DNA of 50,811 nt from Candidatus Woesearchaeota archaeon (lineage in GTDB: Archaea; Nanobdellota; Nanobdellia; Woesearchaeales; JAAOYA01). Shown here in pieces: positions 34,451-39,192 of the stretch. The DNA lies in assembly GCA_018221105.1 (NCBI GenBank), contig JAAOYA010000001.1:1-50811 (forward strand). Direction: 5' to 3'. Below the pieces are notes generated by a model. That model worked only from the letters and a program-made list of their open reading frames with translations. It ran no database searches and had not been told where the DNA came from. Numbering within the stretch: position 1 is the stretch's first letter; each line of letters opens with the position of its first letter. Made by a program: the position numbers and the translations under genes.

Positions 34451-34669
34451 ATGGCAGCAAAAAAGAAAAAACAACCTAAGACTTGTTGTGACAAAAACAC
34501 TAACATGTGCAGTGGAGGCGGAGGAATGTACTTTCTTGGCATTATCGGCGCAGCCATTTACTACATTTCCAACGCCACAAGCTTTTGGAGCGGGGCATTA
34601 GGACTCTTAAAAGCTCTGGTCTGGCCTGCATTTCTAGTGTTTGAAGCACTAAAGTTTATAGGAGCATAA
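34451..34669 (+). CDS. Small two-helix membrane protein of a CPR/DPANN-wide type
   Basis: 72 residues: lysine-rich start, CCDKNTNMCSGGGG, then YFLGIIGAAIYYISNA and a second helix ending LVWPAFLVFEALKFIGA. This looks like a family common in candidate phyla radiation bacteria and DPANN archaea, function unknown. Its stop codon lies inside the first attC-like core box (GCATAAC at 34664), so the cassette array begins exactly at its 3' end. Confidence 0.7.
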   Translation: MAAKKKKQPKTCCDKNTNMCSGGGGMYFLGIIGAAIYYISNATSFWSGALGLLKALVWPAFLVFEALKFIGA

Positions 34670-34864
34670 CATTGCGGTTTGCCGAAGTTCTTAGGGTGGA
34701 CTTAAAAGTCAGGTTAGGGAGTAACACTTTGTGTTAAGGTAGAATGTGGACGAACGAGAGCGCGAGTGATTCGTATAATCGCTGTTATGCGAGGGTCGAC
34801 TGACAAGGAGGAGAGCGCAGCGAGGCAAGGATTTTCGTAGAAAATCCGCAGAGTTGTTTGGTGG
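34664..34864. repeat. Cassette-boundary element A (attC-like, long variant)
   Basis: A GC-rich folding element. Arms GCATAACATTGCG (34664-34676) and CGCTGTTATGC (34780-34790) pair, with a two-base bulge on one side, enclosing ~100 bases of further hairpins. A second part (34791-34864) holds the perfect hairpin GGATTTTC/GAAAATCC and ends in TTGTTTGGTGG, whose reverse complement opens element B across the next gene. On the minus strand the core box reads GTTATGC. Confidence 0.7.
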
Positions 34865-34902
34865 CGCGAAATATTTATTAAGTTGTGAAATATTTTAAGA
34901 AT

Positions 34903-35571
34903 ATGTTATCTAAAGCAGACAATTTAATATTATTAACTAAAAGAATTTCAGAATTAAATCTCAAAAGCAATGTTGTTTTAGCTTTTGATTTTGATGAACT
35001 TGTTGTTCCAATTCATCTGACAAGAGAAGTTGCTCAAAGAGTATCAAAACCACTTGACAAGAAATTATTGAAAAATCTTGGTTCATGTTCATTTGAAGGT
35101 ATAATATATCTTCAAAGCTTAATCTATGAATATAATTTTGAAGAATATGAACAAATAAGAGATAGGATTGTAGAAAAAACAAGTTGGACAAATGGATTCA
35201 ATAAGTTACTAGGAAAGCTACAAGAAAAATATTCAGTAATTTTTATCAGTAGTGGAATAAAAAATATATGTGAAGCAAAACTTAAAGAAATTGATTTTGA
35301 TATGAAAAATATATTAGCATGTGAGTTTAGAATTGAGAACAACAAAATTACTGGATCTAACCTAATAATTTCAGATGAACTAAAAGGATTTATAGCAAAA
35401 ACACTTAAAAAAAAATATAAGGTTATAGCTATAGGACATGGATTAGGAGATAAAATAATGTTAGATAATTCGGATGTAAGTATATCTGTAAATTCTGAAA
35501 TTCCAAATTTGGCAAAATATAATCTTAAATCAGCTGAAGAAGTTCTAAAAATAATTGAAAAGGAAGCTTAA
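34903..35571 (+). CDS. HAD-superfamily phosphatase-like protein (cassette 4 cargo)
   Basis: About 222 residues. AFDFDELVVPI carries the HAD nucleophile motif DxD, SSGI gives motif II (the Ser of FISSG), and GHGLGDKIMLDNSDVSI gives the distal Asp motif. It is similar in layout to small phosphoserine-phosphatase-like enzymes. ATG 34903 lies ~25 bases after an AATATTTATTA box, so it may be leaderless; GTG 34885 is an alternative. The gene is flanked by the TTGTTTGGTGG/CCACCAAACAA inverted repeat, so it is one cassette. Confidence 0.75.
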   Translation: MLSKADNLILLTKRISELNLKSNVVLAFDFDELVVPIHLTREVAQRVSKPLDKKLLKNLGSCSFEGIIYLQSLIYEYNFEEYEQIRDRIVEKTSWTNGFNKLLGKLQEKYSVIFISSGIKNICEAKLKEIDFDMKNILACEFRIENNKITGSNLIISDELKGFIAKTLKKKYKVIAIGHGLGDKIMLDNSDVSISVNSEIPNLAKYNLKSAEEVLKIIEKEA

Positions 35572-35576
35572 AAGTA

Positions 35577-35721
35577 CCACCAAACAATTAGACATAACAT
35601 TGGAATTAAAAGAAGGCGGCTTTAGCCGATTTGGACGAGTGATTTTTCACGAGTCTTTTAATTCCTGATTAGTCGAACCGAACATTTTTTGCGAGGGAAG
35701 TATGACGCAAGCTTAAACTAC
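35577..35721. repeat. Cassette-boundary element B (attC-like)
   Basis: 145 bp. Core arms 35591-35613 and 35654-35674 pair with small bulges, enclosing a CGGC/GCCG hairpin and a second hairpin with a tandem G-A mismatch (35634-35655). The conserved AGTATGACGCA follows at 35699-35709. The left end (CCACCAAACAA) pairs with the end of element A, and the right end (AGCTTAAACTAC) pairs with the start of element C. Minus-strand core box GTTATGT. Confidence 0.85.
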
Positions 35722-35774
35722 GCCGATTGCAGTAAATACTAATCTTTATAAATAATATTACGAATAAAAATAAA

Positions 35775-36329
35775 ATGAACAAATTATTTGTATTTATCTT
35801 AATAGCGTTTTTAATCATCGTTAGTGGGTGTACCGAGAAAATTTCTGAAAAAAAGTTTAGTATCGATGGAAAAGATTGTACAAGTATTGAACCTGAAGAT
35901 TTAGAGAGTTATAAATCAAAATTAACTGGACCATTTGGTATTTGTGAGCTATATCCTGCAGTTGATACTAAATTTGATACGGAAAATCCTGTAAACAATG
36001 ATGGCGAGCAATTAAATGGTTTAAGATGTGCAGGAGATATTTGGATGTCTGTATCAGCAAAACACAATGGAGATTTCATATCATGTTCTGATTTTATTGA
36101 GTATCAATCATCAAGTAAAATACAATTTGAAAAAATCAAGACAATTTACGGAAGAGATATTTATAATTATACTGCACAGACAGTTCCTGATTATCTTTTA
36201 GCTGCAGGTATTAAACCAGACATAGTAACTTTTTATTATTTTTGTGATTATACAAATAATATTGAAATCAAAACACACTCTTTAGAAAGTGTTGATAAAT
36301 ATTTTAATAAATTCATTTCTTGTGAGTAA
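35775..36329 (+). CDS. Predicted lipoprotein (cassette 3 cargo)
   Basis: 184 residues starting MNKLFVFILIAFLIIVSGC, a signal peptide with lipobox VSGC at cysteine 19. The mature domain has six further cysteines, which suggests disulphides, and no recognised family. A TATA-like CTTTATAAATAA lies ~28 bases upstream, so the cassette carries its own promoter. The gene points toward the recombinase, opposite to the usual integron direction. Confidence 0.78.
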   Translation: MNKLFVFILIAFLIIVSGCTEKISEKKFSIDGKDCTSIEPEDLESYKSKLTGPFGICELYPAVDTKFDTENPVNNDGEQLNGLRCAGDIWMSVSAKHNGDFISCSDFIEYQSSSKIQFEKIKTIYGRDIYNYTAQTVPDYLLAAGIKPDIVTFYYFCDYTNNIEIKTHSLESVDKYFNKFISCE

Positions 36330-36374
36330 AATCTCATTTATTTAGAATAACAGTTCTTATATCGACATTAGTTA

Positions 36375-36531
36375 GTAGTTTAAGCTGAGTAATATCGCGC
36401 GTAACATCGGAATTAAACGAGGTTGGCGTAGCCAATCTGGATGGAAGCGCTCGCGCTGGAATCGTTTAATTCCTGATTACGCGCGCCGAAACCGTTTCAG
36501 GTGAGGGGAGTATGACGCAGAGGAGCACTTA
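36375..36531. repeat. Cassette-boundary element C (attC-like)
   Basis: 157 bp. Core arms 36396-36420 and 36462-36485 pair over ~22 bp, including CGCGCGTAA and GGAATTAAACGA. The inner hairpins TTGGC/GCCAA and AGCG/CGCT differ in sequence from those of elements B and D but keep the fold. Conserved GAGTATGACGCA at 36508-36519. The left end pairs with the right end of B, and the right end (AGGAGCACTTA) with the left end of D. Minus-strand core box GTTACGC. Confidence 0.88.
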
Positions 36532-36589
36532 AAAAAAATTATTATAAATTCATAAAATTTATATAACAACAGTTTAAATATAGTCTTAA

Positions 36590-37000
36590 ATGAGAAAAAT
36601 ATTATTTATTATTTTATTATTGGTATTAATTGTTGGATGTACTAAAGAAATAATCAAAGAGGATGCAGGATTAAATAATAGTACAAATATCATAGATGAA
36701 CAAGATATGGTAGAAGATTCAAAAGAAATTGAAAATAACGAAAAACAAAATTCTGAAAGAGTATGTGCTAAAGACGTCCAAAGTCAATTTGTGGGTCCGC
36801 ATGTGTGTAATGGATATTGTAAAACAGATGAAGATTGTAAACTAAGTTGTTGTGGTTCTATTAATAAAAATGAATTTTGTATTGATGATGACAAAGGATT
36901 AGATTGTATAATCAATGGCGATGAAATCCCCGGGAGAATCTATAAAGCAGTTTGCGCTGGTACTTGTGTATATAAAATAAGTCCTATAAAAAATTCTTAA
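36590..37000 (+). CDS. Predicted cysteine-rich lipoprotein (cassette 2 cargo)
   Basis: 136 residues: MRKILFIILLLVLIVGC is a signal peptide with lipobox IVGC at cysteine 17. An acidic Asn-rich spacer is followed by a compact domain with ten cysteines (VCNGYCKTDEDCKLSCC and a later CAGTC), a disulphide-rich fold of the small-knot type. Its own TATA-like AATTTATATAAC lies ~28 bases upstream. It points toward the recombinase. Function unknown. Confidence 0.78.
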   Translation: MRKILFIILLLVLIVGCTKEIIKEDAGLNNSTNIIDEQDMVEDSKEIENNEKQNSERVCAKDVQSQFVGPHVCNGYCKTDEDCKLSCCGSINKNEFCIDDDKGLDCIINGDEIPGRIYKAVCAGTCVYKISPIKNS

Positions 37001-37030
37001 TTTCAATTTTTTCCGCTACCTAATAAATGA

Positions 37031-37175
37031 TAAGTGCTCCTGAGTAATATCGCGCGTAACATCTGAATTAAAAGAAGTACGCGAAGCGTATTTGGACGAG
37101 TTTTTAACGAGTCTTTTAATTCCAGATTACGCGCGCCGAACGAATGCGAGGAGAGTATGACGCAAGGAGCACTTA
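37031..37175. repeat. Cassette-boundary element D (attC-like)
   Basis: 145 bp. The arms 37051-37075 and 37112-37135 pair over ~23 bp; hairpin TACGC/GCGTA and a second hairpin with the same tandem G-A mismatch as in B lie between. Conserved GAGTATGACGCA at 37153-37164. The ends TAAGTGCTCCT and AGGAGCACTTA pair with the neighbours' ends. A 30-bp block (37030-37059) is identical to the start of site E (38227-38256). Minus-strand core box GTTACGC. Confidence 0.88.
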
Positions 37176-37235
37176 ATAAAAATGCAAAGCATGAACTAGT
37201 TTTAAGAATAAAAGGCAAGAAAACAAAAAATAAAA

Positions 37236-37952
37236 TTAGTTTGGAATTGAAGGGGGTGGTGGAATCGTTTGAACAGTTCCTAATTTACACACATCGCCAA
37301 CCTTTACAATTAATCCCAATCCAACAATCTCTGAGGGGATGTTGAAGTCTAAGGGGATGCCCTTCCAATTTGTACCTCTTTGAGTCTCATCAGGCTCAGC
37401 ATTATAAAAATATACGCTTTGGATATTGCATGTGCCTTTAATATCCTCAAGAGAATTACCCTCGAAATGAGGATTAATAGCAACAAAATTCCATCCAGGC
37501 AATAGCTTTATGTCTTCTAGTGGGGGGATGCTTGGTGCGAAATATTCAATATCATATTCCTCTCGGACATAAACCCAGCTAGCATAATTTACCATATAAG
37601 TATTTTCGCCTAATGTATTTTCAGGAAACATTTCTATATAACCTTTTGTTTCTGGATTATATAAGTAAACAAAGACTGGGGAATCTGCTTTTTTTCTATT
37701 TAAACCTGGTATCTGTATATATTCCATAACTTCTTCATACAATGGAATGGCCCTCCCAACATAATTTTCAGACATGTAAAAAGGAAAATTTTCACCATAT
37801 GAAATTAGATTCCAGCCTTTGTATAGATGGATAGAATACTGGAAATCATATAACCCGCTATTAGTTGCCGGTTCATTAATTATTTGTCCACCAGCTATAA
37901 CTATTGCGGAAGTAATTATTATGCTTATTAGAAATATTAATATTTTTTTCAT
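37236..37952 (-). CDS. Exported protein with GWNLIS-type repeats (cassette 1 cargo)
   Basis: 238 residues. A signal peptide (MKKILIFLISIIITSAIVIA) is followed by two domains that each begin with a GWN motif (LYKGWNLISYG and LLPGWNFVAIN), a repeat found in secreted proteins of archaea and bacteria. It ends with a proline-rich tail. This gene and the lipoprotein before it are the only cassette genes transcribed away from the recombinase, the canonical integron direction. Attachment D lies just after its stop. Confidence 0.72.
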   Translation of the reverse strand: MKKILIFLISIIITSAIVIAGGQIINEPATNSGLYDFQYSIHLYKGWNLISYGENFPFYMSENYVGRAIPLYEEVMEYIQIPGLNRKKADSPVFVYLYNPETKGYIEMFPENTLGENTYMVNYASWVYVREEYDIEYFAPSIPPLEDIKLLPGWNFVAINPHFEGNSLEDIKGTCNIQSVYFYNAEPDETQRGTNWKGIPLDFNIPSEIVGLGLIVKVGDVCKLGTVQTIPPPPSIPN

Positions 37953-37956
37953 TTTT

Positions 37957-38151
37957 TTATTCCTCCGGTAGTGCTGGAGGTTGCGGTATCGAATTAGTTC
38001 CAGCGTCTTGGTTTTGTTGTGGCTCAGCAGTCTGAGTATTTAATGTATCTGTTTGCGTGTTTGAATCCTGAACGGTAGTTGTCGAACAACCACTAAGAAC
38101 AAACAAACCCAACATTAAGATAAGGGTTAAGATTAATATTTTTTTCATCAT
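37957..38151 (-). CDS. Small lipoprotein (cassette 1 cargo)
   Basis: About 64 residues: MMKKILILTLILMLGLFVLSGC with lipobox LSGC, then a Gln/Thr/Asn-rich unstructured mature part ending in PPALPEE. ATG 38151 is set by GGAGGT seven bases upstream; the in-frame TTG at 38166 overlaps that ribosome site. It sits 4 bases before the exported GWN protein, so the two form the cargo of one cassette. Confidence 0.72.
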   Translation of the reverse strand: MMKKILILTLILMLGLFVLSGCSTTTVQDSNTQTDTLNTQTAEPQQNQDAGTNSIPQPPALPEE

Positions 38152-38226
38152 GATATAAACCTCCAATAACTATAAAATTCTATTTAAACTTTAAAAAACT
38201 TTTTGTTTCTTGCCCATAAAAAAAGA

Positions 38227-38313
38227 ATAAGTGCTCCTGAGTAATATCGCGCGTAATCATCTATTATACGAAAGTTAATGGATGATTGACCAGTGGCATC
38301 GTCGGCACTGGTC
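38227..38313. other. attI/dif-like site E next to the recombinase
   Basis: A half element: 38227-38256 is identical to the left part of element D up to CGCGCGTAA, then the sequence diverges. AATCATC/GATGATT (38255-38261, 38281-38287) pair. Next is a 26-bp inverted repeat at 38288-38313: GACCAGTGGC, spacer ATCGTC, GGCACTGGTC, with 9 of 10 arm positions matched. Two ~10-bp arms around 6 bp is the geometry of a tyrosine-recombinase core site. Confidence 0.6.
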
Positions 38314-38334
38314 ACTGGACAAGCACGCGTGACT

Positions 38335-38343
38335 GTTATAAAG
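38335..38343 (+). promoter_or_regulatory. TATA-like box for the recombinase
   Basis: GTTATAAAG lies 20 bases after the inverted-repeat site and ~50 bases before the preferred start at 38386. It implies that the site E sequence is upstream of the transcript, not coding. Confidence 0.45.
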
Positions 38344-38385
38344 AAAAAACACCCTAAGCATTCTAACGAAAATGAGGTGATAAGT

Positions 38386-39192
38386 TTGTTTGAAGTCATG
38401 AAAACAGAATTAATATTGTCAAACGTTTCAAAAAGCACAATCAAAGCCTACTTGTATCAAAACCAGAAATTCATTGATTTTATTAATAAAAAACCAGAGC
38501 AAATCAAAAAAAGTGATGTAGTAGAGTACTTACTTGAATTACACACTAGAAATAATAGTCCAAGAACAATAAGATTGGCGATTGCAGCACTAAATTATTA
38601 TTACACAAAAATATTGCGTCGCAACATACTGAAACACATTAGGCAACCAAAAATACCAAAAAATCTTCCCAGAATTTTGGATAAGGAAGAAATTAAAAAA
38701 ATGATATTGGTGACTTGCAATCAAAAACATCGATTACTCATAAGTTTGATTTACTCTTCAGGAATGAGAGTCTCGGAGGCATTAAAAATTCGAAAACAAG
38801 ATATATATCAAGAAAAGAATATTGCGATTGTTCGCTCGGGTAAGGGAAACAAAGATCGTGTTGTTACGTTATCCAAAAACTTTGTTAGTGACTACCTCGA
38901 TTTTGAAAACAGTGTTTATGATTACTTATTTGTTGGCCAAAACAGTAAAACCTTAACTGTTAGGACTGCGCAAGAAATAATAGCTCAAGCAGCAAAAAAA
39001 GCCGGGCTTTCTAGCCACGCACATCCTCATAAGTTAAGGGCTAGTTATGCTACTCACTTATTAGACCAAGGTGTTGGCATTGAAACAGTCGCAAGCTTGT
39101 TAGGTCATTCTAGTGTTAACACAACAAGAAATTCTTACATAAAACTGAGCACTAAACGTTTAGAGCAATTACAGAATCCTTTAGATTGTTAG
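38386..39192 (+). CDS. XerA-like tyrosine recombinase of the cassette array
   Basis: About 268 residues: an N-terminal SAM-like core-binding domain (VSKSTIKAYLYQNQKFIDF) and a catalytic domain with Arg in SGMRVSEAL, Lys in GKGNKDR, HKLR, His in LLGHSS, and the Tyr nucleophile in RNSYIKLST. The ~67 residues from GKG to HKLR leave no room for the extra segment of integron IntI, so it resembles XerA/XerC. I prefer TTG 38386, with GAGGTGA 5 bases upstream; an in-frame GTG at 38293 would translate the inverted-repeat site. It faces away from the cassettes. Confidence 0.85.
   Translation: MFEVMKTELILSNVSKSTIKAYLYQNQKFIDFINKKPEQIKKSDVVEYLLELHTRNNSPRTIRLAIAALNYYYTKILRRNILKHIRQPKIPKNLPRILDKEEIKKMILVTCNQKHRLLISLIYSSGMRVSEALKIRKQDIYQEKNIAIVRSGKGNKDRVVTLSKNFVSDYLDFENSVYDYLFVGQNSKTLTVRTAQEIIAQAAKKAGLSSHAHPHKLRASYATHLLDQGVGIETVASLLGHSSVNTTRNSYIKLSTKRLEQLQNPLDC

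Follow-up and report, generated by a model that had tools for sequence, protein, structure and literature searches.

A candidate cassette-capturing platform of DPANN archaea with integron-like hairpin sites and a XerA-clade recombinase

A chromosomal array of gene cassettes in a Candidatus Woesearchaeota archaeon very probably represents a cassette-capturing platform of DPANN archaea, which works in the manner of an integron with a recombinase of the XerA clade in place of IntI. The array lies in a stretch of 50,811 nucleotides (the window) at the start of a 286-kb contig; the genome comprises 1.15 Mb and is 92% complete. The original prediction described four gene modules, folding elements A–D, a half-site E, a 26-bp inverted repeat and a tyrosine recombinase gene directed outwards, and we find all of these in their places (Table 1). 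It offered two readings, a divergent integron or a separate Xer-based cassette system, and both halves are supported, with integron-like working parts and an enzyme of the XerA clade. The evidence for our reading is present in the sequences themselves: the architecture of the arrays, the covariation of the hairpins, the hybrid junctions, the break of synteny at the crossover base and the link to particular recombinase clades.

Hairpin elements and their arrays

First, the gene modules are separated by attC-like folded sites, as in integrons. A sequence-only alignment of nineteen elements from several genomes yields a stem of 15 pairs, 9 of which show double compensatory changes, with 97.9% of cells paired. 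The stem holds 47 double-change cells, compared with 12.4 ± 2.6 in shuffles, and this signal is lost once one stem arm is slid by one base. Written on the strand that corresponds to the integron 'bottom' strand, the predicted hairpin site reads AAC-ATC-stem...stem-T-GTT. The position of AAC and GTT is constant in the 19 aligned elements except for B, C and D of the window, in which the right arm has GATT. The sequences GAGTAATATTGC, GAAGT and ATTTGG are conserved in and around the hairpin and distinguish the archaeal sites from those of bacterial integrons. The minus-strand core boxes are GTTATGC (A), GTTATGT (B), GTTACGC (C and D) and ATTACGC (E); those of A–D fit the integron core GTTRRRY at 6 of 7 positions, as had been predicted.

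Loop-less compact elements (TAACATCGGAATTCCTGTTA with the usual flanks) occur singly or within arrays, and they look like cassette sites stripped of their inner hairpins. Besides the four elements of the array, the genome of the window holds one such lone copy (G000, contig C2:42654-42706; L202:4655-4707, minus strand), and similar ones occur in L250–L258. The window lineage also shows a variant form (35650-36490, 37120-37135 and 38257), in which the right arms have GATTACG or GATTAGT in place of GTTA and attI has a 7-base spacer (TCATCTA), as though cassette site and attI had altered together.

The distribution of the elements was examined with a covariance model (R1), a search of DPANN genomes that the original prediction had proposed. 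B, C and D are among the training sequences of R1; A is outside them and is nevertheless found in the window at 30.0 bits (E = 1e-4). R1 detects elements in 57 of the 117 genomes sampled from the order (E ≤ 0.01) and in 107 of the 279 sampled from the phylum (E ≤ 0.001), as well as in Aenigmarchaeota and Nanohaloarchaeota metagenome-assembled genomes (MAGs). In another archaeal phylum, to which a Thermoplasmata MAG belongs, 14 of 194 genomes carry them (E ≤ 0.01), which suggests spread between phyla. At E ≤ 0.01 there is no match in 143 Gammaproteobacteria, though 58 of them carry true IntI, nor in 17 other bacteria. Given its presence in archaea and absence from these bacterial controls, the element is archaeal, DPANN-centred and, by R1, distinct from bacterial attC. 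The 22-base motif GAGTAATATYGNNNNTAACATC, common to C, D and one relative, occurs in 40 stretches among 84,980 genomes. Some 23 of these stretches have archaeal titles, nearly all DPANN; many of the 40 have the same hairpin downstream. A scan of IMG/VR for the left arm of the element returned seven stretches, none of them strong with the model (best 22 bits).

In 20 loci, selected for holding both a recombinase and elements, every one of the 68 elements shares the strand of the recombinase and lies upstream of it. When the unfiltered lists were intersected by eye, one exception was found, a weak element 13 kb downstream of the recombinase in G090. The median interval between elements is 819 bp, most intervals hold one open reading frame (ORF), and ORFs from different arrays are almost never homologous. 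Recognizable cassette genes encode Fic, TrmB, nucleotidyltransferase/HEPN, GmrSD and XcyI nucleases, NUDIX and deaminases; surface proteins and restriction-modification are the other accessory genes named for the arrays. Related genomes were inspected for the same genes in fixed order, which was not seen; the arrays hold different genes. Nor are the elements randomly scattered: they lie upstream of the recombinase and are co-oriented with it, although lone copies and arrays without a recombinase on the same contig exist.

Unlike the cassette genes of bacterial integrons, about half of those found here face the recombinase. Thirty point away from it and 32 towards it (n = 62), and thus a single orientation read from Pc is not observed. 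In the window, one cassette (37236-38166) is directed away and three are directed towards the recombinase, an oddity in the original prediction that proves to be general. TATA-like boxes precede 36 of 99 cassette ORFs, compared with 4 of 99 at a control distance, so a cassette often has a TATA-like box of its own, another difference from bacterial integrons.

These observations bear on the idea that the elements are static repeats lying merely between genes, such as repetitive extragenic palindromic or miniature inverted-repeat transposable element (MITE)-like sequences, terminators or RNA motifs. Hairpins in intergenic DNA and loop-less lone copies are what such repeats would look like. However, a search of Rfam with the elements matched no known structured-RNA family, and the strict strand and position bias relative to the recombinase, the complementarity of cassette ends and the break points at attI (both described below) are unexpected of passive repeats. 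The strand bias and the cassette-end complementarity led us to reject this explanation, which we regard as scarcely credible.

Cassette ends and the attI site

If a circle is joined at the boundary between TAA and C (TAA/C), the outer arms of one array element derive from two cassettes. On this premise, 64 neighbouring element pairs were compared in model-based columns, with six positions per comparison. Between the two ends of a single cassette, 5.42 of 6 positions are complementary (55 of 64 at five or more), while the outer arms of one element reach 2.98 (8 of 58; Wilcoxon p = 1.7e-9 against same-cassette ends) and non-neighbour pairs 2.86 (29 of 292). Since the ends of one cassette are complementary and the arms of one element are not, the hairpin would be whole only in the circle joined at TAA/C, as for the integron attC. 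Hybrid sites of the integron type are thus seen for 55 of 64 cassettes and for two of four in the window, cassette 2 (C–D) and cassette 1 (D–E), which is complementary at all six positions (ACGCGC/GCGCGT). The left arm of attI is also complementary to the first cassette (6 of 6 in L036).

Second, the motif ATTGnnnnTAA-CAnCTA-TTARACGAA lies upstream of the array recombinases at 15 of 27 loci with up to four substitutions, compared with 3 of 2700 shuffled stretches, a test that is partly circular as the motif was derived from the same loci. The spacer of the motif is 6 bp, and the window site, ATCGCGCGTAA-TCATCTA-TTATACGAAAG, has one extra base. The site resembles archaeal dif, which in P. abyssi is ATTGGATATAA-TCGGCC-TTATATCTAAA (PMC2958812). 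In the window, all sequence of element E to the left of 38257 is the end of cassette 1, and the block AAGTGCTCCTGAGTAATATCGCGCGTAA, common to D and E, stops exactly at the predicted crossover (37059 and 38256).

Third, similarity between related genomes spans the recombinase and attI and halts at TAA/C. G486 and G487, which are 97% identical over the recombinase region, share 35 of 40 bases to the right of this boundary and 13 of 40 to the left. For G018 and G096 (84% identical) the values are 36 of 40 and 20 of 40, the latter including the site consensus. This halt is the trace expected from cassette turnover at attI. In the pairs G036/G104, G110/G052 and G040/G107, contigs end at the attI junction or similarity stops inside the recombinase gene. 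Motif and synteny breaks together place attI beside the recombinase, with cassettes inserted there, as in integrons.

We propose that attI, which directly precedes the recombinase gene, is a dif-like site in duplex form. A cassette would be a gene that usually carries a TATA-like promoter of its own, and its two ends would meet in the circle to form one hairpin site. The neighbouring recombinase would join the folded AAC strand (the plus strand of the window, equivalent to the attC bottom strand) to duplex attI at TAA/C, and the joined product would be resolved by replication. We infer the folded single strand and its replicative resolution because of the covariation and the one-sided crossover. 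Joining at TAA/C would leave a half-hairpin on either side of each insertion, so that every hybrid element of the array would unite parts of two cassettes. New cassettes would enter beside the recombinase.

Shuffling of modules between double-stranded Xer/dif sites would account for some of the same data. Here the element would be an inverted pair of dif-like sites, and the recombinase of the array or the host XerA would swap modules between duplex sites by a two-strand route. The attI site and the outer arms do resemble archaeal dif (ATTGnnnATAA-6-TTA), and the enzyme is of the XerA clade and lacks the I2 helix, which diverts IntI to single-strand exchange. However, the left-arm spacer of about 8 nt and the right-arm spacer of 6 nt are unlike the attI CAnCTA, and therefore the overlap homology of a duplex reaction is missing. 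Moreover, the shared sequence ends at one boundary only, the stem covaries over 11 pairs that include the arm positions, and the cassette ends rebuild one hairpin and not two duplex sites. The pdif modules of Acinetobacter likewise consist of genes bounded by Xer-like sites, but pdif sites are duplex and alternate in orientation, whereas the DPANN elements are covarying hairpins in one orientation. The duplex explanation, weakened by the unlike spacers and the arm covariation, appears unlikely to us.

Two further observations concern the region between attI and the recombinase. A motif CACTGGWCA (window 38288-38320) is often doubled and lies about 55–135 bp before array-type recombinase genes. 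With up to one mismatch it is found upstream of 12 of 29 array-type and 19 of 29 further recombinases and of none of 20 no-array XerA genes, and it is possibly an operator or an accessory recombinase site. In G486, a MITE-like hairpin insertion of ~130 bp (L236, about 1318-1449), absent from G487, separates attI and the recombinase.

The XerA-clade recombinase

The best family match of the window recombinase is archaeal XerA (NF040815), although its 206.7 bits fall below the cut-off of 220; the match to the IntI family TIGR02249 is likewise below threshold (160 bits against 265). Among relatives of solved structure, the scores are 147 bits for P. abyssi XerA, 121 for T. acidophilum XerA and 105 for IntI4. 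The catalytic R-K-HxxR-H-Y residues of XerA are present in the alignment. As had been predicted, the IntI-specific insertion is lacking: IntI profile positions 178–238 are unmatched, and the insertion (the I2 helix, near patch III) is missing from all array recombinases examined. The comparison with IntI and XerA that the original prediction had called for was made in a tree of 68 rows, a sample that archaeal IntIs lie outside, and it places the window recombinase in the XerA clade and outside the IntI proteins, which group together at 100/100 on a long stem. A separate clade (96/92) comprises twenty no-array DPANN XerA-like proteins, and the array-associated ones fall in three other sets. G011, G036 and G041 each hold one no-array and one array-type recombinase; no close no-array XerA was found in the genome of the window, which is 92% complete.

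A canonical IntI integron acquired from bacteria would have the same layout of attI, attC and integrase and similar core boxes, and such integrons have been reported in Archaea. However, the unmatched profile segment, the absent insertion, the position outside the clade of the sampled IntI proteins and the silence of R1 in the 58 IntI-bearing genomes led us to reject this origin, which we consider very improbable.

Constrained trees that unite all array types (AU p = 0.45), or all array types with IntI (AU p = 0.52), are not rejected, and a common origin of the array recombinases with IntI is thus compatible with the tree tests. We narrowly favour a broader proposal: a widespread DPANN integron lineage that is independent of IntI and lacks I2, in which XerA-type enzymes would capture folded single-stranded cassettes at a dif-like attI, I2 would be no prerequisite, and bacterial IntI integrons may share the origin, since a tree uniting them with the array recombinases fits as well as the free tree. 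The unpaired ATC opposite T at the crossover could act as the extrahelical bases of attC do, without an I2 helix to read them.

Several points weigh against the integron-like reading. No recombination has been observed, and all data come from single genomes, mostly MAGs. Cassettes 3 and 4 of the window lack end complementarity, and internal pairing is good in A, C and D; the distal half of the array may be old or repaired. About half of the array recombinases have no clear attI motif upstream, and a single clade of array-associated recombinases is neither shown nor rejected. Finally, the recombinase lacks the I2 helix, which Escudero et al. 2020 (PMC7790495) report as a requirement for cassette capture with no known counterpart in other proteins, and the single-strand step may therefore differ.

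Three side observations concern recombinase sequences. An SPLD-like C-terminal motif is common to IntI and the DPANN XerA and array recombinases and absent in E. coli XerC/XerD. Only the window recombinase and its nearest relative carry an additional residue immediately ahead of the catalytic tyrosine (TTRNSYIK, TTRKAYIN; 39120-39160, L006). A second tyrosine recombinase of 396 residues, distant from XerA, is encoded in G000 (contig C4:109263-110453; L203:4263-5453) and has a zinc-ribbon-like C-terminal motif (CPKC..CYSC).

Known systems and the features of the window

We class the system as a variant within the integron kind, distinct from IntI integrons. It shares with bacterial integrons an outward recombinase, an adjoining attI, imperfect-hairpin sites in which one strand carries AAC at the crossover, hybrid array sites and mostly one short gene per cassette; it differs in its XerA-clade enzyme without I2 and in its dif-like attI. 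Ghaly et al. 2022 (PMC9668308) described cassette arrays in 75 archaeal MAGs, with attC sites including those of Nanoarchaeota. Most of those arrays lack an integrase, and the six integrases found all have the IntI-specific domain; a XerA-type recombinase with a dif-like attI does not appear in the main text. Archaeal XerA/dif (PMC2958812) shares the recombinase family and the ATTGnnnATAA-6-TTA arms, but it resolves dimers at one site not adjoining xerA, whereas here a separate set of recombinases lies beside its own site and array, and some genomes hold a no-array XerA as well. Our literature search on integrons with Woesearchaeota, DPANN or Nanoarchaeota, which excluded preprints and covered few subscription papers, found no XerA-type system.

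Integrons are generally regarded as dependent on IntI and its I2 helix. A phylum-wide XerA-clade integron-like system at a dif-like attI would offer a plausible link on the way from Xer/dif to integrons and make the origin of integrons testable. It would give reduced, host-dependent DPANN archaea a dedicated route for the exchange of accessory genes, and the XerA-type enzyme may be the missing recombinase of archaeal attC arrays without IntI.

Table 1. Features of the cassette array and recombinase in the window
Feature	Position	Strand	Details
Element A, attC-like hairpin, distal array end	34647..34803	+	TAA/C boundary 34669/34670; GCATAAC/GTTATGC arms
Cassette 4	34670..35597		ORF 34885-35571 +; ends complementary only 3/6
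Element B, attC-like hairpin	35578..35685	+	Boundary 35597/35598; 65.8 bits, training sequence
Cassette 3	35598..36404		ORF 35775-36329 +, lipoprotein-like start; ends complementary only 3/6
Element C, attC-like hairpin	36383..36493	+	Boundary 36404/36405; 81.9 bits, training sequence
Cassette 2	36405..37059		ORF 36590-37000 +, lipoprotein-like start; ends complementary 6/6
Element D, attC-like hairpin	37038..37143	+	Boundary 37059/37060; 77.6 bits, training sequence
Cassette 1, beside attI	37060..38256		ORFs 37236-37952 - and 37957-38166 -, secreted/lipoprotein-like; directed away from recombinase
Element E, attI-like site, dif-like arms	38246..38274	+	ATCGCGCGTAA-TCATCTA-TTATACGAAAG
Palindrome GACCAGTG..CACTGGTC, 26 bp, then CACTGGACA	38288..38313		About 65-80 bp before recombinase
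XerA-clade tyrosine recombinase	38383..39192	+	Catalytic R-K-HxxR-H-Y present; no IntI-specific insertion

The predicted product of cassette 4 is a SerB/HAD-like phosphatase, with a sub-threshold NCBIfam match. The ORFs of cassettes 1–3 have lipoprotein-like or secretion-signal starts (35775, 36590 and, on the minus strand, 37957 and 37236), which suggests cell-surface products. At the distal end (34451-34669), the TAA stop codon of a 72-residue ORF (34667-34669) is the TAA of the element A crossover, and thus the array adjoins that gene exactly.

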